Shown: piece after piece, positions 37,426 through 58,887 of the stretch
Position numbering within the stretch: position 1 is the first letter of the stretch
Layout: every line of letters begins with the position of its first letter
Assembly (NCBI RefSeq): GCF_000294655.1
Contig: NZ_CAHP01000060.1
Location: 1 to 64,000 of the forward strand
Direction: 5' to 3'
From: Magnetospirillum molischianum DSM 120
Lineage (GTDB): Bacteria; Pseudomonadota; Alphaproteobacteria; Rhodospirillales; Magnetospirillaceae
Length of the DNA stretch: 64,000 nucleotides
Translations under genes and position numbers: made by a program
The notes under the pieces: generated by a model
Seen by the model: only the letters and a program-made list of their open reading frames with translations
Told to the model about the DNA's origin: nothing
The model's database searches: none

Positions 37426-37443
37426 AAAGTCAGCGTTGACTTT
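37426..37443. promoter_or_regulatory. Family 2 operator over the capsid -35
   Basis: AAAGTCAGCGTTGACTTT; contains the -35 TTGACT of the capsid promoter. Confidence 0.75.
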
Positions 37444-37465: not shown

Positions 37466-37466
37466 T

Positions 37467-37482
37467 AAGTCAACGCTGACTT
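37467..37482. promoter_or_regulatory. Family 2 operator at the capsid start point
   Basis: AAGTCAACGCTGACTT, starting one base after the -10 box. Confidence 0.75.
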
Positions 37483-37529
37483 TCCGTCGGAAAGCGTGTC
37501 TGGTTCCAACGGGCAATAGGGAGTAATTC

Positions 37530-48087: not shown

Positions 48088-48508
48088 GGTGCAAACTCAC
48101 AAGGATGTGGTAGAATTGATCGGTATCGCGTTCCGTTACGGCGGGCGCGGGCCCGAAGACTACGACTGTTGGGGCCTGTTGATGGAGCTGTGTCGCCGGG
48201 ATAATAAAGTCATCCCTGACTTTCGCAGCACTTCCAATATAGCGAAGATCGCCAGGATCATGGCGACCAACAGGCACCAGTGGCGACAGATCGAGCTTCG
48301 GCCAGGCTGCGGGCTCTGGTTTCGGGTCCGGGGGTTCGCGTCGCACGTCGGCTACTACCTGGGGAACGACAAGTTCGTTCACACCTGGGAGGAGTCAGGC
48401 GGCGTTGTGGTTGAGCGGCTGAGCCAGTGGGAACACCGTCTGATTGGGGCCTTTGAGTATGTCGGAGACGAAGCAGATCCAGCCGCTTTACGCCCTGGCG
48501 AACCCTGA
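48086..48508 (+). CDS. NlpC/P60 peptidase, lambda K-like, 140 aa
   Basis: Catalytic Cys C28 in YDCWGL, His H87 in HVGYYLG, and a third polar residue near H99. Cuts peptidoglycan stem peptides during DNA injection or processes the tail tip. Lacks the N-terminal Mov34/JAB half of lambda K. Overlaps the next gene by 50 bases. Confidence 0.85.
   Translation: MVQTHKDVVELIGIAFRYGGRGPEDYDCWGLLMELCRRDNKVIPDFRSTSNIAKIARIMATNRHQWRQIELRPGCGLWFRVRGFASHVGYYLGNDKFVHTWEESGGVVVERLSQWEHRLIGAFEYVGDEADPAALRPGEP
48206..48223. repeat. Family 2-like sequence inside the K-like gene
   Basis: AAAGTCATCCCTGACTTT: intact outer half-sites with an altered centre, within coding sequence. Confidence 0.4.
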
Positions 48509-51500
48509 AGCCAAGGTAAACTGCCTCATCGTTTACAACCCCCTCGATGTCAGCCAGCGCTCGCGCTGCGAGATTGTCTGGGGCCTGAACCGGACGCTGG
48601 CCGACTATTTGGATGGCCTGCCCGAGGGGATCGAGTGGGGCGTCTGTGTCAACGCGGACGCGATCGAGCGCGAGCGCTGGGGAAGCATCTATCTCGCACC
48701 CGATGACTGGATCACGCTGATGCCGGTCCCCGAGGGCGGCGGAGGGGGGGGTGGGAAAACTGTAATGCGTCTTGTGGCAATGATTGCTGTTGCGGTCGTT
48801 GCCTGGCAGGCGGCTCCATATCTCGCTTCAATGATCCCTGGGGCAGTGGCCGCTGGCCCTACGATTACCGGCGCCGCCGGCTACATGACGACGATGGGGA
48901 GCATTGCCTCTTCTGTAATCGGCGGCGCGATTACAGTTGTCGGTGGCATGCTGGTCAACGCTCTGATGCCAGCACCCAGGGCCAAGACTGCCGACGCGTC
49001 GTGGAACTCATCCTCGGGCGGAACCGATAGCCCCTCTTATGGCATCGACGGTGCCAAAAACACAGCGAATGAGGGCGTTCCGGTGCCGGTCCCCTATGGC
49101 GCGTTCCGCATCGGCGGCAACATCGTCAATTTCAAAACCGTCAATGACGACAACACCCAGATCATTTACATGATGACCGCTCTGGGTGAGGGCGAGATTG
49201 AGAGTGTCTCGGACATCGAGATCAACGAACAGCCTCTTTCGAACTACAGCGACGTGGAGGTGATCACTCGTCTGGGCGTCAACAACCAGGAAATAATCCC
49301 CTGGTTCGATGACACCCTGGCCTCCTACAACCGCGGCGTCAAGATCACCCGCAACTGGACCAAGCACAAGACCGTCGGCGAAGTTGACAGGTTCCGCGTT
49401 GACGTTGTGTTCCCTTATGGCCTGTGTGGGACGGATACCGCCAGCGGCGGTCGCGTGACGATCTCTGTCCCGGTCGAGATCCAGTATCGTAAGGTGGGCA
49501 GCGCCGTCTGGAGCACTCTAGGCGTCTACGACATCGGCGCTGCCCAGCGCACCGCCCTGCGCAGGAGCTTCGAGTCGCCGCTGCTCGAACAGGGGCAGTA
49601 TGAAATCTGGGTGCGCCGCAACACTGACGATAGCGACTCCGATACTATTCAGGATGACGTTAATCTGTCTGATGTGTGGGAAATCGTTACTGACGATGTT
49701 TGCTATAATCACTCAGCGATCTTGGCACTTAAGATAAAGCTGACGGATCAGCTTTCCGGGGTGCCCAAGGTCACGGCGTTGGTAAAGGGGCGGAAGCTCA
49801 ACATCTTTGATCGTCGCGGCGATCTCGTTTCAACCGTCTTCAGCGCGAACCCGGCGTGGATCGCGATCGACATCCTGACGCACCAGCGCTACGGCGGAGG
49901 GATGGGGCTCTCTCGGATCGATTTCCCCCGCTGGGTCGATCTGGCTGATTACTGCGCCGAAAAGGGCTTGGAGTTTAACGGCGTCTTCGACTTTAACACC
50001 AACGTCTGGGAGGCGCTCCAGAACGTCCTACGCGTCGGGCACGCCCAGATCATCAATGTCGGCACCCGCTATTCCGTGGCGATCGAACGCCCCGACGATC
50101 CTGTGATGATGTTCGGTGTCGGCGACATTATCGCCGACACCTTCAACATCGAATGGCTGGCGCTCGAGGACCGGGCGAACGAAATCGAGGTCGCCTACTA
50201 CGATCGCGACGATGGCCACAAGCGGCGCACTATCAAGGTGGCCGACGAGGAGGCCCTGGACCGCGGCGTCCCCCAGCGTTCCGCGAGCGTCGCTCTTCTC
50301 GGCGTGACCAGCGTCGATCAGGCATACAAGGAAGGCTGGCTTCAGCTTGCGCTGAACAAATACATCCTCCAAACCGTCTCCTTTGACGCTCCGCTGAGCG
50401 CCATCGCCTGCACCGTCGGCGACCTGGTGTTTGTGCAGCACGACATGCCGAAGTGGGGCGACGCTGGCAAGGTCGAGGCCGGCTGCACGTCTAGCTTGAT
50501 CAAGCTAGACCGCCCAGTCACGATGGTCGCCGGGCGGCAATATAAGTGCCTGATCCACTTTGATGCCCTGAAGCGCTACACCGGCATCGTGCATCACATT
50601 GTCGGCACTTCGGTTTTCGTGTCCGGGATCGACGACGCCACCTTGAAGCACTGCCGGCGGTTCGTCAGCAATGGGCATGATATCGCCGTTCTAGGGTTGG
50701 TGAAGCAGAACCCCTATGTCGAGGTTATCCTCGACACCACGAGCGGGTTGGCCACCGGCGCGTCGTTCGAGCTGTGGGATACCGACGTTCTCGAGGATCG
50801 CTCGGTCGTCGGCGCCGCCGCAAGCGGGGAGGTGACAGAGATCACCCTCGCCACGCCGCTGAGCCAGGCGCCAGCCCAGTTCGCCAACTGGATGTTCGGC
50901 GAGAACACCAAGATCAAGAAGCCATTCCGCGTGCTTTTGATCGCCGGCCAGGGCGAATACACGCGGACACTGAGCTGCCTCGAATACAACGAGTCGGTCT
51001 ACCAGGACCCCGAGCACGCCACGCCGACGCCGAACTATTCAGCGCTGCGCGGGGGCATCGGGCACGTTCTCGACCTAGCTGCCGTCGAGGAGCTTTATCA
51101 GGTCGGCAGTGCCGTCAGGACGCGCCTGAACATTGGCTGGACACAGCCGTTGACCGGGCTCTATGGCGGTGCCGACATCTACCTGTCGATCAACAATGGC
51201 GAATATCGCCTGATCGACAGCGTGGTCGGCACGGTCTATTCGATGGATGTCACCGACGGCGATCGGATGTCGTTCGTCGTGGTGGCCAAGGATGCGCTTG
51301 GCGTGCGCGCCGAGCGCATCACGGCCCCGAGTGTCTGGCATCTGGTGCTCGGAAAGACCACCCCGCCGGCGGACGTGACCAACTTCTCCGTTCGGAAGGT
51401 GCCGGGCGGCATCGAGTTCACCTGGAGCCCGATCCCCGACATCGACCTTCGGGGATATGAGATCCGCGAGGGCCTGTCCTGGGATGATGGCGTCGTGATC

Positions 51501-52721
51501 ATGCACGACTTCATGGGAACCCAGTTCACCGCCGCGAAGGCGGCCGCCGGCGCCTTCGCCTGGCACATTCGGGCGAAGGACACCAACGGGAACTACTCGA
51601 ACGGCGTCGCCACCTGCCGTCTCAACGTGCCAGCACCGAGGTCGGTGCGCGGCTTCAACGTGGTCAAGAACATCGACACCCTTCATTTCGTGTGGCTGCC
51701 GAACAGCGAGGTGGACATCAGCCACTATGAGATCCGCGAGGGCGCGACGTGGGCTTCCGGCATCGTCATCGGCCGCATTCAGGGCGCCCAGCACACGGTC
51801 CCGGCGGCGACCGGCGGAAATCGTTCGTTCTGGATCAAGGCGGTGGATAGCGCTGGCATCTACAGTGATCAGGCTGCGTTCACGATGACCACGGTGGCGA
51901 TCAGTGATGACCACAATCTGATCCTGGCCAAGAATGAGTCGGCTAACAGCTACCCCGGCACCAGGCTGAACATGGACACGAACGGTAGCGATCTCGTCAT
52001 GAGCGTTGGTGCTCAGCACGGCGAATATATCCACAAGATCGAGTTGGCGACGCAGAATACCGGGCGGGTGATCATCAACGACGCTTTCGACGCTATCATT
52101 GTGGATGGGAAGACCTGGGGCGACGCCGGGTTTAATTGGGCAAGCGCGGACTCGAACGTGCCGTGGATCAGACCGGGCATCCTCGACACCATCTCGATCG
52201 AGCGGCAGATCGCCATCTGGAGCGGGTTGCAGGCGGGCGAGATCGAAGCGTGGTCGATGAACGGGATGGTTGTCGGCATGAAGGGGACAGCCGCCGTGAC
52301 GAACTCGAAGATCACCTTCGAGCAGGGTCGCTTCAACCAGGGCGCCCTGATCGGGGATACCTCGGCTCTGAAATACGACTACACGGTGCCGGACGCCTTC
52401 AACATGACGTTCTGGATGAAGCCGAAGCAGACCAGCGTGGGCAATAGCTTCCGCGTCGTCACCCTGTCGAAGACGGCAGGCTACATGCGTCTGGAGTATG
52501 ACGATCAGCTCCGGTGCTTTGTGCTGGACTGCTCTGACGGGGTTCTGCTGCGCACAGATGCCCTTGATTTCGGGCCGGGGGACTTCCTGTTGTTCGCCCT
52601 TGTTCAGACCCCCGCGGCCCGCAGAGTGCATGTCGGGCGGGCGCGGGGGAGGGCAATCGTTACCGGGTCGGTAACGAAGCCGGCGATCACCGGGTTCGAC
52701 ACGATCCAGTTCGCCGCGTAG
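48459..52721 (+). CDS. J-like tail-tip host-specificity protein, 1420 aa
   Basis: ATG 48459. N-terminal lambda I-like part with a poly-Gly linker (about residues 93-100) and a hydrophobic region (100-170), then the J hub domains (EGVPVPVPYG, NEQPLSNY, VTALVKGRKL). Two fibronectin type III repeats (about 975-1155, GYEIREG and YEIREG) precede a C-terminal LamG/concanavalin-like domain (about 1270-1420) probably binding host surface glycans. Confidence 0.88.
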   Translation: MSETKQIQPLYALANPEAKVNCLIVYNPLDVSQRSRCEIVWGLNRTLADYLDGLPEGIEWGVCVNADAIERERWGSIYLAPDDWITLMPVPEGGGGGGGKTVMRLVAMIAVAVVAWQAAPYLASMIPGAVAAGPTITGAAGYMTTMGSIASSVIGGAITVVGGMLVNALMPAPRAKTADASWNSSSGGTDSPSYGIDGAKNTANEGVPVPVPYGAFRIGGNIVNFKTVNDDNTQIIYMMTALGEGEIESVSDIEINEQPLSNYSDVEVITRLGVNNQEIIPWFDDTLASYNRGVKITRNWTKHKTVGEVDRFRVDVVFPYGLCGTDTASGGRVTISVPVEIQYRKVGSAVWSTLGVYDIGAAQRTALRRSFESPLLEQGQYEIWVRRNTDDSDSDTIQDDVNLSDVWEIVTDDVCYNHSAILALKIKLTDQLSGVPKVTALVKGRKLNIFDRRGDLVSTVFSANPAWIAIDILTHQRYGGGMGLSRIDFPRWVDLADYCAEKGLEFNGVFDFNTNVWEALQNVLRVGHAQIINVGTRYSVAIERPDDPVMMFGVGDIIADTFNIEWLALEDRANEIEVAYYDRDDGHKRRTIKVADEEALDRGVPQRSASVALLGVTSVDQAYKEGWLQLALNKYILQTVSFDAPLSAIACTVGDLVFVQHDMPKWGDAGKVEAGCTSSLIKLDRPVTMVAGRQYKCLIHFDALKRYTGIVHHIVGTSVFVSGIDDATLKHCRRFVSNGHDIAVLGLVKQNPYVEVILDTTSGLATGASFELWDTDVLEDRSVVGAAASGEVTEITLATPLSQAPAQFANWMFGENTKIKKPFRVLLIAGQGEYTRTLSCLEYNESVYQDPEHATPTPNYSALRGGIGHVLDLAAVEELYQVGSAVRTRLNIGWTQPLTGLYGGADIYLSINNGEYRLIDSVVGTVYSMDVTDGDRMSFVVVAKDALGVRAERITAPSVWHLVLGKTTPPADVTNFSVRKVPGGIEFTWSPIPDIDLRGYEIREGLSWDDGVVIMHDFMGTQFTAAKAAAGAFAWHIRAKDTNGNYSNGVATCRLNVPAPRSVRGFNVVKNIDTLHFVWLPNSEVDISHYEIREGATWASGIVIGRIQGAQHTVPAATGGNRSFWIKAVDSAGIYSDQAAFTMTTVAISDDHNLILAKNESANSYPGTRLNMDTNGSDLVMSVGAQHGEYIHKIELATQNTGRVIINDAFDAIIVDGKTWGDAGFNWASADSNVPWIRPGILDTISIERQIAIWSGLQAGEIEAWSMNGMVVGMKGTAAVTNSKITFEQGRFNQGALIGDTSALKYDYTVPDAFNMTFWMKPKQTSVGNSFRVVTLSKTAGYMRLEYDDQLRCFVLDCSDGVLLRTDALDFGPGDFLLFALVQTPAARRVHVGRARGRAIVTGSVTKPAITGFDTIQFAA

Positions 52722-54833: not shown

Positions 54834-54862
54834 TTGTCTTGACCTCCTCGCGAGGCTATAAT
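54834..54862 (+). promoter_or_regulatory. Promoter of the Cys-tail fibre gene
   Basis: -35 TTGTCT (54834-54839), 17-base spacer, consensus -10 TATAAT (54857-54862). Confidence 0.75.
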
Positions 54863-54880
54863 AAAGTCAACGCTGAGTTT
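54863..54880. promoter_or_regulatory. Family 2 operator at the start point
   Basis: AAAGTCAACGCTGAGTTT, directly abutting the -10 TATAAT. Confidence 0.75.
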
Positions 54881-54891
54881 AAAGGTGGGCC

Positions 54892-55854
54892 ATGCAGAGC
54901 TATACCGAGATCACCGACACCATGACACTGACGGCCTCCAGGCCCCTGCTGCTAAACAACGACAAGTCGATTATGTCGTGCTTCAGCGGCACCGCGTTCC
55001 CGACGATCAATCTTCAGGTCGGTATGCTGTGCCTGCGCACCGACACCTGGCAGCTCTGGCAGCTCAAAGACGCGACGCCGACCTGGGTGCTGATCGCTGA
55101 CATTTCGAAAACCTATCTTTCTAAGGAGACGGCCGACACCTATTACGCCGCTCTTGCGCACAATCACAATTCGACCTACGCCGCTCTTGTGCACAATCAC
55201 GATGGCGGCGCTATCACCGCCGGCACGGTGGCTTCTGCGCGCTTGCCGGCGCCGCTTCAGCAAATCACTGCCGCTGTAAATTGGGGGGCGGTGACTATCG
55301 GCGGCGTGAATGGCGGTTGGGCTGGGATCAATTTTTCCGGCACGGGAATGTATTTCCTCGTGGGTGGGGACTCTCACGGTTTTTGGACAGGCTCCGCTTG
55401 GAAATGGCATGTCAATAATGGCGTGCTGAGCGTAGGCGTCGTTCCCGTCGCCAATGTTTCCGGTCTGGGCAGTGCCGCCACCTGCAACACGGGGACAGCC
55501 GTCGGAAACGTGCCTGCGGTGCAGGCTGATGGAAAACTGCCTGCTTCCGTGATCCCGGTGGATCTGTCGAGTCGCGTCGCCAAATCAGGCGACACCATGA
55601 CTGGTCAGCTCAATGGAACGGTTTTCAAGTCAACCGGGGCATCGTCTGCTTCGACTGGTTTCAAAATTAGCACTGGGGCGGATCTAGGAGCCTTGTTCAA
55701 AGACATTAATTACACCGCAGTTCAGACTGTTTCCATCTCCAATCCTGAGGGATGGTGCGGACAACCAACAAGCTTGTCTGTTTCCGGTGGTATTTCGGGG
55801 AACAATTTGAGTCTTGGGATTAATTGCAACTGCCTTTGCAATTGCGGAGGCTGA
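54892..55854 (+). CDS. Tail fibre with Cys-alternating C-terminal peptide, 320 aa
   Basis: AAAGGTGGG before ATG 54892. HNHN and HNHD motifs (about 93-104) are the metal-binding HxH type of trimeric fibres; central beta repeats and a SGDTMTGQL collar follow. The chain ends INCNCLCNCGG, with C312, C314, C316 and C318 alternating with other residues and a terminal GG. The radical SAM gene two positions downstream suggests this tail is a modification substrate. Otherwise it could bind metal or form disulfides at the fibre tip. Confidence 0.75.
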   Translation: MQSYTEITDTMTLTASRPLLLNNDKSIMSCFSGTAFPTINLQVGMLCLRTDTWQLWQLKDATPTWVLIADISKTYLSKETADTYYAALAHNHNSTYAALVHNHDGGAITAGTVASARLPAPLQQITAAVNWGAVTIGGVNGGWAGINFSGTGMYFLVGGDSHGFWTGSAWKWHVNNGVLSVGVVPVANVSGLGSAATCNTGTAVGNVPAVQADGKLPASVIPVDLSSRVAKSGDTMTGQLNGTVFKSTGASSASTGFKISTGADLGALFKDINYTAVQTVSISNPEGWCGQPTSLSVSGGISGNNLSLGINCNCLCNCGG

Positions 55855-55855
55855 G

Positions 55856-56596
55856 ATGATTTTTTTCTGCAAAAATTCAGCGTCCAACGGTTTTCACGTT
55901 GCCGTTTCAAATCTGGATGACGGTATCCGGGTCGAGCTTCATCTTCCTGATGAAGGTGGAAAATTAAACCGTGTTGCCGCAAGGGATTTTCATTACGAAG
56001 ATTGGCGAAATCTTCGCGGTTGGTCTGACCGTGCCTCGTGGATGATCACCTCGGATTGCGTTATGAACGGAGCGACGCCGTTTAATCTTTATGAGAGATC
56101 CTGGCCCTTTCGCACGAGCGCGGTGGAAACCACGTCAACGATTTCGTGCTTTACCCCGGTTGTCTCTGTTCTTGTGCCGACGGCAACGGCGCCCGTGAGT
56201 CGCTGGTCGTATATTGTTTTCGCCGCAGATCGAAGCAAAGTTGTCGGCAGCTTTCCGATTGACGAAGAGGCGTCTTCTGGCGACGAGGTGAGGGAGCGAG
56301 TTTCCCCTAAGCTGGTATTTGAAAATTTCCCTGACGCGCTGCCGAGTAATGGCTTTGTCGATCTCTCGCTCAAATTGGTCGATTTTGCCGATAAGCCTGT
56401 TGAACTGGACGCAACGGCCGAAGTGTCGGCGACTGGAGGCGTTTTGTCGTGCTCGAGACCTCAGATCAAGAGCGGGCGCGGGACTGTTCGATGGTTTGGC
56501 GCTTACACGAGTCCCGGTGACGTTCTGGATGTAAAGGTGGGGTTCAAGCTTTTTTCTGGAACCGACAAGCGGTCTCTGAAGGTGATCGAGGGGTAG
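55856..56596 (+). CDS. Partner protein of the fibre/radical SAM operon, 246 aa
   Basis: ATG 55856 has GGAGG five bases upstream; an in-frame ATG at 55814 lies inside the fibre gene and is rejected. Starts one base after the fibre stop and ends two bases before the radical SAM start. The C-terminal half (about 150-246) looks like an Ig-like beta sandwich; the N-terminal half is unlike known families. May present the fibre tail to the enzyme or form part of the fibre. AT-richer than the other tail genes. Confidence 0.65.
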   Translation: MIFFCKNSASNGFHVAVSNLDDGIRVELHLPDEGGKLNRVAARDFHYEDWRNLRGWSDRASWMITSDCVMNGATPFNLYERSWPFRTSAVETTSTISCFTPVVSVLVPTATAPVSRWSYIVFAADRSKVVGSFPIDEEASSGDEVRERVSPKLVFENFPDALPSNGFVDLSLKLVDFADKPVELDATAEVSATGGVLSCSRPQIKSGRGTVRWFGAYTSPGDVLDVKVGFKLFSGTDKRSLKVIEG

Positions 56597-56598
56597 CG

Positions 56599-57891
56599 AT
56601 GGAGCCGATTTTTCACGAGGTAACGCTTCGGGATCGGGGTGGAAAAGATGAAGTTTTCCGTTTCGACAGCGCCAACATGCGTTTGCTTGATCAATTTGGC
56701 GTTCTGATCGAGCCAAAGATTGACGCTTCTCTTCCGACCTTCGGAAGTTGTGGATCGAAGCCTGCAAGGGTTATTTCTCCGACGGCTCCCGGACGAAAGA
56801 GTCGCGATCTTTCATATATCAAGCTGCTGCTTGGCTTTTCTTGCAACTTCAATTGCACCTATTGCAATCAGAGGTCTCAGACGCATGATGGCGCAAGCAC
56901 GGGTGATCCCGAGGCGTTCGTCGAGGGGATGTCCAAGTGGTGCTCGGGCGGGAGCGATGATCTAGGTTCTGGTCTTCGCATGAGCCTGTGGGGCGGTGAG
57001 CCATTCGTTTATTGGAGCGTTTTGAAAAAGATGGTTCCCGCGCTGCGGCGACGCTACCCGCATATCGCCCTGAGCATGGTGACGAATGGGTCGCTTCTGA
57101 CCCAGGAGCGCGTGAACTTTGTGTGCGAAAACGACATCAATTTGATGATCAGCCATGATGGACCTGGCCATTATCTTCGAGGAGTTGATCCCTTAAAGGA
57201 CTCCTCCATTGTGGAGCTGATTTGTCAGCTTCTTGATCGTCGTGGCAAGGAGAAGGTTGGCTTCAATTGTGTTTTGACCAGGGAGAATTGCTCCCTGTCG
57301 AGAATTCACGATCACATCGCTGAAGCTCTTGGTCGTGAAGATTTTGGGTTCTCGACGGAGGGTGTTGTTCAGACTGAGGACGACGGTTCTTTTTCGGTTT
57401 CCCCATCGTCGAAGGAAAATTACGAGGATATTTATTTGACGCTGCTGAAAGATGCCATCGAAGGGGGCGCTCTCAAGGCTGGAACCTACAACCTCGAATA
57501 TATCGGTGCCCTGAGAGCCTTTTCGGAGCACCCGGAAATGAATGCGTGGGGTCAGCGCTGCGGTTTGGACCGGGATGACGTGTTGGCGGTTGATCTTGCT
57601 GGCAATGTTTTAACTTGTCAGAACGAGATTGATCCCTCAATGCGAATTGGCCACGTAAACAATCTCGACGCGGTGCGCTTGAATACCAGCTATCACTTTA
57701 TGGCGCGCGAGAGTTGTGTTCGTTGTCCTGTAGTGCAGCTTTGCAAAGGCGGCTGTATGCATCAGACGGGAGTTGCTTGGGAAACGACCTGTCGCAATCA
57801 TTACCACTATCATCTTTCTGTTCTGGCCACGGCGATATTCTCCATGACGGGCAAGATTTTAGTAGGGATTTGCTCTGACGATAAGGCGTAA
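56599..57891 (+). CDS. Radical SAM/SPASM peptide-modifying enzyme, 430 aa
   Basis: CNFNCTYC (C82, C86, C89) is the SAM-bound [4Fe-4S] motif, followed by WGGEP (131-135) and MVTNGS (160-165). C-terminal SPASM domain: C321, C340, then C373-x2-C376-x5-C382-x3-C386 and C398, enough for two auxiliary clusters. A short N-terminal extension (1-70) could bind the substrate. Family members install thioether, epimer or formylglycine changes in peptides and proteins. The adjacent Cys-tail fibre is the obvious candidate substrate. Confidence 0.93.
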   Translation: MEPIFHEVTLRDRGGKDEVFRFDSANMRLLDQFGVLIEPKIDASLPTFGSCGSKPARVISPTAPGRKSRDLSYIKLLLGFSCNFNCTYCNQRSQTHDGASTGDPEAFVEGMSKWCSGGSDDLGSGLRMSLWGGEPFVYWSVLKKMVPALRRRYPHIALSMVTNGSLLTQERVNFVCENDINLMISHDGPGHYLRGVDPLKDSSIVELICQLLDRRGKEKVGFNCVLTRENCSLSRIHDHIAEALGREDFGFSTEGVVQTEDDGSFSVSPSSKENYEDIYLTLLKDAIEGGALKAGTYNLEYIGALRAFSEHPEMNAWGQRCGLDRDDVLAVDLAGNVLTCQNEIDPSMRIGHVNNLDAVRLNTSYHFMARESCVRCPVVQLCKGGCMHQTGVAWETTCRNHYHYHLSVLATAIFSMTGKILVGICSDDKA

Positions 57892-57905
57892 AGTCAGCGT
57901 TGAAT
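57890..57905. promoter_or_regulatory. Family 2 operator
   Basis: AAAGTCAGCGTTGAAT, overlapping the radical SAM stop and the -35 TTGAAT. Confidence 0.7.
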
Positions 57906-57982: not shown

Positions 57983-58339
57983 GTGTCCGACCCGCAGCAG
58001 AACACTGCCAGCGCTGTTCTGATCGGCCTGGGAGAGCTGAAGGGCCAGATGACCTCGCTTCAGGCGTTCCTGGCTTCGCACACCGAGCGAATGGATCGCC
58101 AGGACGAGCGAATGGATCGCCAGGACGAGCGAATGAACGAATTCAGCCGGAAGCTGCACGAGCACAATCAGGCCGACATCACCACCCATGAGGCAGTGCA
58201 GGAGAAAGTCAGCAGGGCGAAGAGCGAGCTGACCGAGCGCATCACCAAAGTCGAGAACAAGATCGCCTACTGGAGTGGCGGGCTTGCCATCATCTCGCTG
58301 TTCATTGGTGTTCTTCTCAAGAAGCTGGGGCTGGTGTGA
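57983..58339 (+). CDS. XhlA-like coiled-coil membrane protein, 118 aa
   Basis: SD GAGAGGAG, with a likely GTG start. Coiled coil with perfect tandem repeats of ERMDRQD (18-base direct DNA repeats at 58087-58125), and a C-terminal membrane anchor (YWSGGLAIISLFIGVLL). Shape matches XhlA-type lysis accessory proteins. Confidence 0.7.
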   Translation: MSDPQQNTASAVLIGLGELKGQMTSLQAFLASHTERMDRQDERMDRQDERMNEFSRKLHEHNQADITTHEAVQEKVSRAKSELTERITKVENKIAYWSGGLAIISLFIGVLLKKLGLV

Positions 58340-58887
58340 TGGACAGGATCAGGCAAATGGCCACTGAAATCGTGGTTCGCGAGGGCGGCCTGAGCAAGAA
58401 CAGGAACGATCGCGGCGGCATCACCAATTTCGGGGTGTCGCTACGCTACGCTCGCGGCAAGGGGCTCGTCATGGATCTGAACCATGACGGCGTGGTGGAC
58501 GAGAAGGACATTCTGCTGGTTACACCGCCCCGGGCCATCGAACTGTTCGTCGAGGATTTCTTCACGGCTCCGCATTTCGACAAGCTGCCTGAGAGCGTGC
58601 AGGAGCAGATGTTCGACATGGCGGTGAATTTCGGCCCCGGCGGCGCCGGCATCGTGCTCCAGAGGGCTCTAAACGCCCTTGGCTATGGTCCCCTGGCCGA
58701 GGACGGCGGGGTTGGTCCGAAAACCCAGACCGCAGCAACTCTTGCCGACGCTGCCGATCGCCGGGGTCTGGTCAACGGCGTGGTGGCAGCCCGCATCGCT
58801 CGCTTCAATGCCATTGCCAAGAGCGACCCCGGCCAGATTGAGTTTCTCGCTGGCTGGATCAAGCGCGCCAACAGCTTCAAGGTCTAG
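58339..58887 (+). CDS. Endolysin, GH108-type muramidase, 182 aa
   Basis: ATG 58339 overlaps the previous stop. N-terminal GH108 motif REGGLSKNRNDRGGITNFGVS with catalytic E15, followed by helical core and a C-terminal PG_binding_3-like domain (ALNALGYGPLAEDGGVGPKT). Cleaves the glycan backbone. No signal peptide, so release depends on a holin. Confidence 0.9.
   Translation: MDRIRQMATEIVVREGGLSKNRNDRGGITNFGVSLRYARGKGLVMDLNHDGVVDEKDILLVTPPRAIELFVEDFFTAPHFDKLPESVQEQMFDMAVNFGPGGAGIVLQRALNALGYGPLAEDGGVGPKTQTAATLADAADRRGLVNGVVAARIARFNAIAKSDPGQIEFLAGWIKRANSFKV

Follow-up and report, generated by a model that had tools for sequence, protein, structure and literature searches.

Tail fibres ending in alternating-cysteine arrays are encoded beside radical SAM/SPASM enzymes in phages

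The window analysed here is a stretch of 64,000 nucleotides from Magnetospirillum molischianum DSM 120 (contig NZ_CAHP01000060.1, positions 1 to 64,000), whose tail-fibre slot holds a three-gene operon encoding a fibre with a cysteine-rich end, a partner protein and a radical SAM/SPASM enzyme. The pairing of such a cysteine-array tip with a SPASM enzyme is real and widespread, as found with three search keys, namely the array, the enzyme and the N-terminal anchor of the fibre. The enzyme probably modifies the array covalently, whatever the chemistry. Thioether staples, suggested by the predicted fold, are its likeliest form and are put forward tentatively.

The three open reading frames (ORFs) lie on the + strand, in the order fibre, partner, enzyme, and have 1 and 2 bp between them. 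The tight operon, the Cys-tailed fibre and the complete enzyme, with its SPASM domain above cut-off, stand as described in the first-pass annotation of the window. The operon follows a gpJ-like protein and precedes the lysis genes (GH108 endolysin). Its first gene is placed in the fibre slot by this position and by a conserved anchor domain, which is 44-46% identical over 80-90 residues to the fibres of Achromobacter phages JWF and 2-1 and is also found in many viral contigs. The translated fibre terminates in INCNCLCNCGG, i.e. in LSLGINCNCLCNCGG followed by the stop codon. The corresponding CNCxCNC pattern at the DNA level, TGYAAYTGYNNNTGYAAYTGY, occurs only once in the 3.8-Mb genome.

For the array key, the DNA of IMG/VR was scanned for CNCNCNC, and 80 new loci were listed out of 120 stretches. 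Thirty-seven of these contain an ORF of at least 60 residues in which the array lies no more than 30 residues from the end. The 59 seeds of the first hidden Markov model (HMM) of the enzyme were chosen by motif. A radical SAM ORF was present in 32 of the 37, against 1 of 10 loci in which the motif falls in another ORF and none of 33 without such an ORF. The five misses (L028, L068, L077, L083, L087) are loci that break off 43-2430 bp downstream; the contig of L028 recurs as L373, this time with the enzyme. The first-pass annotation had proposed to look for phage fibres ending in CxCxCxC beside radical SAM genes, and over the three keys Cys-array tips and SPASM enzymes are found together in many viral contigs and in bacterial genomes.

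For the enzyme key, an alignment of 16 enzymes from array loci (A3) was used to search IMG/VR and GTDB contigs, and 160 loci were sampled, the best 80 of 282 from the former and the best 80 of 116 from the latter. A same-strand ORF whose last 45 residues contain CxCxC was found in 110 of the 160 loci, compared with 11 of 160 for the opposite strand. Among the remaining 50, 23 have less than 4 kb of upstream sequence and fall outside the set of 137 informative loci, while the other 27 include nine with an array followed by a Hint-like start, one with an NCRNCNC tail and 17 without array. Altogether the array accompanies the enzyme in 120 of 137 informative loci.

The anchor key was alignment A7, 88 residues long and excluding the array, used against IMG/VR; the best 80 of 118 loci were considered, and since A7 was taken from array-bearing fibres this sample leans towards them. 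Sixty-two fibres end in an array (one via a Hint-like domain), and the enzyme lies beside 53 of them; around the other nine, the locus ends within 1.9 kb. By contrast, no enzyme accompanies eight of the nine fibres that lack an array; around three of the eight, 4 kb or more of the locus remain. In the ninth, L307, the enzyme adjoins a 148-residue gene ending in CSCSCCNG. These figures leave out four cut fibres and five loci without an anchor ORF. The arrangement typical of ribosomally synthesised and post-translationally modified peptides (RiPPs), a precursor encoded next to a modifying enzyme, is observed here as a pairing of genes, and the putative enzyme may be dedicated to the candidate precursor.

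The composition of the array was derived from 131 distinct stretches (121 C-terminal and 10 preceding a Hint domain), 130 of which were parsed; these counts, like those of same-strand tails and fibre bodies, include a few chance ORFs. Cysteines occupy alternate positions, and the residue between them is N 308, A 88 and D 62 times out of 526. The residue preceding the first array Cys is N in 112 of the 130, and 69 of 120 C-terminal arrays end exactly at a Cys. The possibility that the array is a DNA microsatellite was ruled out, since four synonymous codons are mixed (TGC 724, TGT 284, AAC 345 and AAT 213 in 195 array stretches) and Cys is fixed while the alternate residue varies. The fibre bodies fall into 11 single-linkage clusters, three with 104, 25 and 5 members and eight singletons (a minimum of one or two being chance ORFs), so that the tip is present on bodies without detected similarity. 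The same anchor carries a tail collar domain in L307 and an endosialidase-type chaperone in L308, the two array-free fibres tested; the array accordingly looks, from sequence, like one option for a swappable fibre end.

Ten distinct arrays directly precede a Hint domain, a call based mostly on motifs. In Achromobacter phage 2-1 the Hint domain PF05203 scores 46.6 bits against a cut-off of 32.1 (E=5e-12) and starts directly after NCNCDCNCS; L238 and L252 match below the cut-off, with 28.5 and 16.7 bits, and the other seven are assigned by motif only. Hint family proteins cleave before the first Cys of the domain, so the array would become the end of the processed fibre. The window fibre already ends in this way: it has no Hint domain, and the stop codon follows two residues past the array. 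The earlier proposal that the fibre tip is a modified precursor is partly supported, namely in the enzyme pairing and in the terminal or pre-Hint placement of the array; the modification itself, its chemistry and a role in adsorption belong to the proposed part.

Membership of the enzyme in the radical SAM superfamily follows from its CNFNCTYC motif, from a PF04055 score of 31.1 bits against a cut-off of 29.5, from the fold matches of its model, and from the invariance of C82, C86 and C89 in the alignment of 39 enzyme sequences (A5). The SPASM domain TIGR04085 scores 36.3 bits against a cut-off of 27, its seven cysteines are all invariant in A5, and phrog_1802 is matched by each of the 39 enzymes. 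The AlphaFold2 model has a predicted local distance difference test (pLDDT) of 93.3. CteB, whose structure entry is titled after thioether bond formation, is the top match in both Foldseek and VIA-align (Z 23.6, root-mean-square deviation (rmsd) 4.0, 342 residues aligned); further neighbours are TigE (Z 19.1), SuiB (Z 15.7) and the epimerase EpeE (Z 15.5). Because the nearest fold is that of a thioether former, the model favours thioether chemistry.

The partner (pLDDT 93.1) is predicted to consist of an N-terminal domain (residues 1-148) and an invasin-like Ig domain (151-246), the latter aligned by VIA-align to intimin 1f00 with Z 10.9 and rmsd 2.2 over 91 residues. No solved fold stood out for residues 1-148 in lists dominated by Ig-domain matches; the same domain has seven good full-length matches in BFVD, all unnamed or uncharacterised viral proteins, with template modelling (TM) scores of 0.66-0.80 by query length. 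An iterated HMM seeded with the window partner collected 130 distinct sequences, the seed included, among the fetched loci. The family occurs in 113 of the 160 enzyme loci, 105 times upstream and 8 times downstream of the enzyme, and is missing from 47. These counts, and the 49-row alignment A4, retain at least one false match, in L300, which is a phage tail tube protein (PF18906) matched through its Ig domain. No Cys is conserved in the alignment, and the nearly invariant columns are G195, G207, G221 and K227. The middle gene of JWF and 2-1 was considered as a member and is unsupported by sequence (best E 0.06); it groups with L029, L053 and L067. Its role could be either to offer the tip to the enzyme or to serve as a component of the tip.

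Relatives of the array and enzyme were also found outside this type of fibre. Ten of 14 further viral loci (L004-L017) encode a protein of 65-93 residues whose end reads HTH.FYD(D/N)Y...CNCNC or nearly so, followed by several CxxxCxxC ORFs, recognised by motif only. L004 and L015 begin at a contig end, the contig of L009 in full (L040) has an HTHxFYDDY-type protein, and none is present in the locus of L013. No match to this small protein was found in the phage collection. Two adjacent proteins with CTCNCNYA-type repeats lie among five CxxxCxxC ORFs of a 207-kb viral contig (L018:8054-9202). In two loci extra genes are placed between the array fibre and the enzyme (L037:4045-5552, L101:4754-5392), including a 2-oxoglutarate (2OG)-Fe(II) oxygenase-like one (26 bits, cut-off 27), which suggests a second tailoring step. 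In Campylobacter phage CJLB-14, protein P0007 (L388:40876-42480), annotated as hypothetical or 'N-acetylneuraminate pyruvate lyase', contains internal CDCNYCTC repeats and lies 2.2 kb before an enzyme matching phrog_1802 with E=2e-66. With at least 91% identity, P0007 occurs in 15 records of Campylobacter phages, a figure that counts RefSeq duplicates; in IBB_35 (AEF56812.1) it is also near a radical SAM gene.

Several observations weigh against a dedicated, fibre-modifying and thioether-forming enzyme. No array was found within about 5 kb of the enzyme in 17 of the 137 informative loci (L171, L178, L182, L188, L199, L206, L240, L251, L259, L260, L261, L262, L265, L266, L276, L285, L300), so the enzyme family also has other substrates and extends beyond fibres. 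The enzyme-key test leans towards the array-side clade, from which A3 was built. The 80 anchor loci are related, their anchor proteins grouping at 80% identity into 16 clusters, of which five have the array and 11 lack it, and the counts are not independent events. ChlB (Z 21.5) and anSMEcpe (Z 20.7) follow close behind CteB. The first 60 residues of the enzyme model form three strands and no helices, thus no winged-helix RiPP recognition element (RRE), a common but not universal feature, is seen by secondary structure. The window enzyme remains below every listed NCBIfam maturase equivalog cut-off, among families that include SCIFF, PapB, QhpD, nif11 and HxsB (TIGR04064 80.1 of 518.7, TIGR03906 73.8 of 453, NF047865 72.6 of 340, TIGR03974 51.7 of 425); these bit scores refer to the window enzyme, the other 38 members of A5 being compared by best E-values only. 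Finally, in the 150 kb of CJLB-14 that were read, only one of five CxxxCxxC ORFs lies near P0007.

An enzyme invariably paired with an array was accordingly rejected, the 17 loci showing none in at least 4 kb of upstream sequence. Homologous enzymes without a Cys-tailed fibre, named by the first-pass annotation as one finding that would speak against it, do exist, in this minority of loci, while the remaining 120 agree with it. Pfam analysis of the large upstream gene in four of the 17 revealed YcaO/nitroreductase fusions in L259 and L265, a C39-peptidase ABC transporter in L251 and an ABC transporter in L262. In the viral loci L171, L182 and L188 a tryptophan halogenase lies beside the enzyme family member, together with a 2OG-Fe(II) oxygenase in L182; the other ten were viewed as ORF lists only. 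As genes of the YcaO and C39 types serve in peptide maturation, these misfits are in line with a peptide-modifying enzyme. In L259 and L265, and by eye in L260 and L261, the enzyme relatives, on bacterial contigs, lie directly downstream of the YcaO/nitroreductase fusion, possibly in an undescribed RiPP pathway. The relatives in L251 and L262 are downstream of the transporter, and an RTX-like repeat ORF was noticed by eye near the one of L262.

Within the probable statement that the enzyme modifies the array, a chemistry other than thioethers is a rather unlikely variant, which would comprise epimerisation to alternating D and L residues, C-C cross-links or oxidation of Asn, Asp or Ala. It would suit the strict period of two, with N, A or D mostly between the cysteines, the presence of ChlB, SuiB and the epimerase EpeE among the fold neighbours and the oxygenase-like proteins of the two tested loci L037 and L101, which fall just under the cut-off. 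The top rank of CteB in two structural searches argues against it, as does the fixed Cys, since an epimerase could do without it. It is less probable still that the array is a thiolate tip binding a metal or an Fe-S cluster, with the enzyme serving its assembly or acting on the partner. CxCxC arrays do resemble thiolate metal sites, metal sites are known in phage fibre tips, and the partner family accompanies most of the sampled enzymes. The partner, however, is without conserved Cys and is absent from 47 of 160 enzyme loci, to be set against arrays in 120 of 137 informative ones.

Fibre modules often exchange together with their neighbours, and the whole module is low in GC; the enzyme might then be an unrelated auxiliary metabolic gene, travelling with an array that acts through disulphides or a covalent bond to the host. 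A metabolic role has been suggested for the Campylobacter phage enzymes (PMC2853527). This explanation is quite improbable, as no enzyme accompanies eight of the nine array-free fibres that share the anchor, and as the pairing holds for other carriers, such as the 65-93-residue HTHxFYDDY...CNCNC proteins beside several radical SAM ORFs. That the pairing itself arises by chance or from sampling deserves almost no weight: viral contig collections are redundant and the samples are the best rows of longer lists, and yet the enzyme is found in none of the 33 loci without an array ORF and tails on the opposite strand are ten times fewer than those on the same strand (11 against 110 of 160).

For covalent modification by the enzyme, the following course can be proposed. 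The (Asn-Cys)n array would form the distal end of the fibre, and the phage-encoded SPASM enzyme would act on this C-terminus by generating a 5'-deoxyadenosyl radical. Cys thiols may then be linked to carbons of neighbouring residues as thioether staples, the least certain step, to give a compact, covalently rigid tip contacting the host surface. The partner might present the fibre to the enzyme or join the finished tip, and in some relatives a Hint domain would excise itself and leave the array as the end. Extended to phages at large, the proposal becomes a class in which arrays on unrelated fibres are stapled by SPASM enzymes, are swappable for chaperone or collar ends, are sometimes unmasked by Hint domains, and explain, at least in part, why Campylobacter phages and the fibre islands of large environmental phages are so rich in radical SAM genes; for this generalisation the chances appear evenly balanced.

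The features of the operon and its surroundings are collected in Table 1. A single promoter and operator had been claimed for the operon. The operator is supported by a window-wide family of palindromes, AAAGTCARCGYTGA, with 43 matches (at most two mismatches, both strands) where 1.5 are expected, one of them directly 3' of the -10 box of the promoter-like sequence. The promoter-like site is weak alone, three being found in the region by the consensus scan against 1.7 expected. Sites of the AAAGTCARCGYTGA type are located, for example, at 37426-37443, 37466-37483, 48072, 52727, 54863, 57890 and 59516, and the recurring palindrome probably marks a phage-wide repressor regulon.

The claim that the operon is richer in AT than its surroundings holds, its GC content being 0.533 compared with 0.595 for the window (rank 3 in AT-richness among 611 overlapping windows of 3 kb). 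Over its first 400 nt the fibre gene is at the local GC (0.59) and the drop begins within the gene, which places the edge of the foreign-looking module inside it. The operon DNA has no match in the phage collection. The enzyme is present in 6 of 55 genomes of the family Magnetospirillaceae, M. molischianum included, and this patchy distribution fits a prophage module; acquisition of the operon from elsewhere is plausible on account of the GC drop and of this distribution. Twelve other loci from the family were inspected, with an array in five (L391, L393, L397, L398, L402) and none in seven within flanks of about 1.5 kb.

Table 1. Positions in the window of the operon, its parts and its neighbours
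Feature	Position	Strand	Basis
gpJ-type central tail fibre/host specificity protein (context)	48444..52721	+	phrog_31 'central tail fiber J', E=8e-147
Sigma-70-like promoter, TTGTCT-17-TATAAT	54834..54862	+	Consensus scan; weak by itself
Palindromic operator-like site, AAAGTCARCGYTGA	54863..54880	.	Member of window-wide family
Tail fibre, 320 residues, with C-terminal Cys array	54892..55854	+	ORF; N-terminal anchor common to relatives
Fibre N-terminal anchor domain, 88 residues, basis of A7	54892..55155	+	18 invariant columns, 11 sequences
Cys array C-N-C-L-C-N-C, then GG and stop	55825..55845	+	Sequence; sole genome match of TGYAAYTGYNNNTGYAAYTGY
Partner protein, 246 residues from ATG	55856..56596	+	Family found by HMM; N-domain 1-148, Ig domain 151-246
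Partner C-terminal Ig (invasin/Big-like) domain	56306..56593	+	VIA-align to Ig domains
Putative radical SAM/SPASM maturase, 430 residues	56599..57891	+	PF04055, TIGR04085, phrog_1802 E=1e-44, AlphaFold2 model
CxxxCxxC radical SAM cluster motif, residues 82-89	56842..56865	+	Invariant in 39 sequences of A5
SPASM cysteines C321, C340, C373, C376, C382, C386, C398	57559..57792	+	All invariant in A5
Second operator-like site, just past operon end	57890..57903	.	Exact match
GH108 endolysin (context)	58336..58887	+	PF05838, E=1e-16

No published description of the pairing of a Cys-array tip with a SPASM enzyme was found, a weak negative, as the search was made without bioRxiv preprints and most subscription papers. 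If the proposal is true, phages apply RiPP-type radical chemistry to a part of the virion, a covalent and genetically swappable layer is added to host recognition, and a source of enzymes becomes available whose target is a short tag at the C-terminus of a large protein. It would also offer a testable answer to the many radical SAM genes of some phages, an oddity noted in 2010 (PMC2853527). The array is a simple sequence signature, by which annotators can find both substrate and enzyme.

Among known systems, the Firehammerviruses of Campylobacter (CP220, CPt10, IBB_35, CJLB-14) differ from the window in that the Cys repeats are internal and their carrier has no fibre annotation. The 11-12 radical SAM proteins of CP220 and CPt10 were described by Timms et al. 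as highly unusual, and a metabolic benefit was suggested (PMC2853527). Radical SAM cassettes are added in the host recognition cluster, or tail-fibre island, of pelagimyophages MAGV3 and MAGV16, and the available part of the report (PMC7029224) names no Cys-tail substrate or function for them; the likeness drawn here is one of description. A link to Cys-rich substrates may be envisaged for the radical SAM genes of both groups.

In a search of 50,697 phage records, relatives covering more than 80% of the enzyme came from Achromobacter phages 2-1 (34% identity) and JWF (32%) alone; 14 records were matched overall, and searches with two other enzymes returned the same three records. As in the window, the gene order in these phages is fibre, a 240-residue gene and radical SAM, whereas the middle gene is of another family by sequence and the fibres continue from NCNCDCNCS or NCNCDCNCNCS at once into Hint-type sequence. 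The deposited names are 'anaerobic sulfatase-maturating enzyme' or 'radical SAM domain-containing protein', 'Hint family protein' and hypothetical.

CteB (5WGG/5WHY) and SCIFF-type maturases, ranthipeptide maturases and PapB are likewise radical SAM/SPASM enzymes with a Cys-rich substrate encoded alongside. Unlike them, the window enzyme stays under the equivalog cut-offs, its model shows no RRE-like helices in residues 1-60, and the end of a long fibre protein is its candidate substrate. QhpD (TIGR03906), the maturase of quinohemoprotein amine dehydrogenase, differs in substrate and setting, and the window enzyme falls well below its cut-off (73.8 bits against 453); as proposed for the window enzyme, QhpD is a SPASM maturase devoted to a structural subunit instead of a free peptide, and it performs thioether chemistry.

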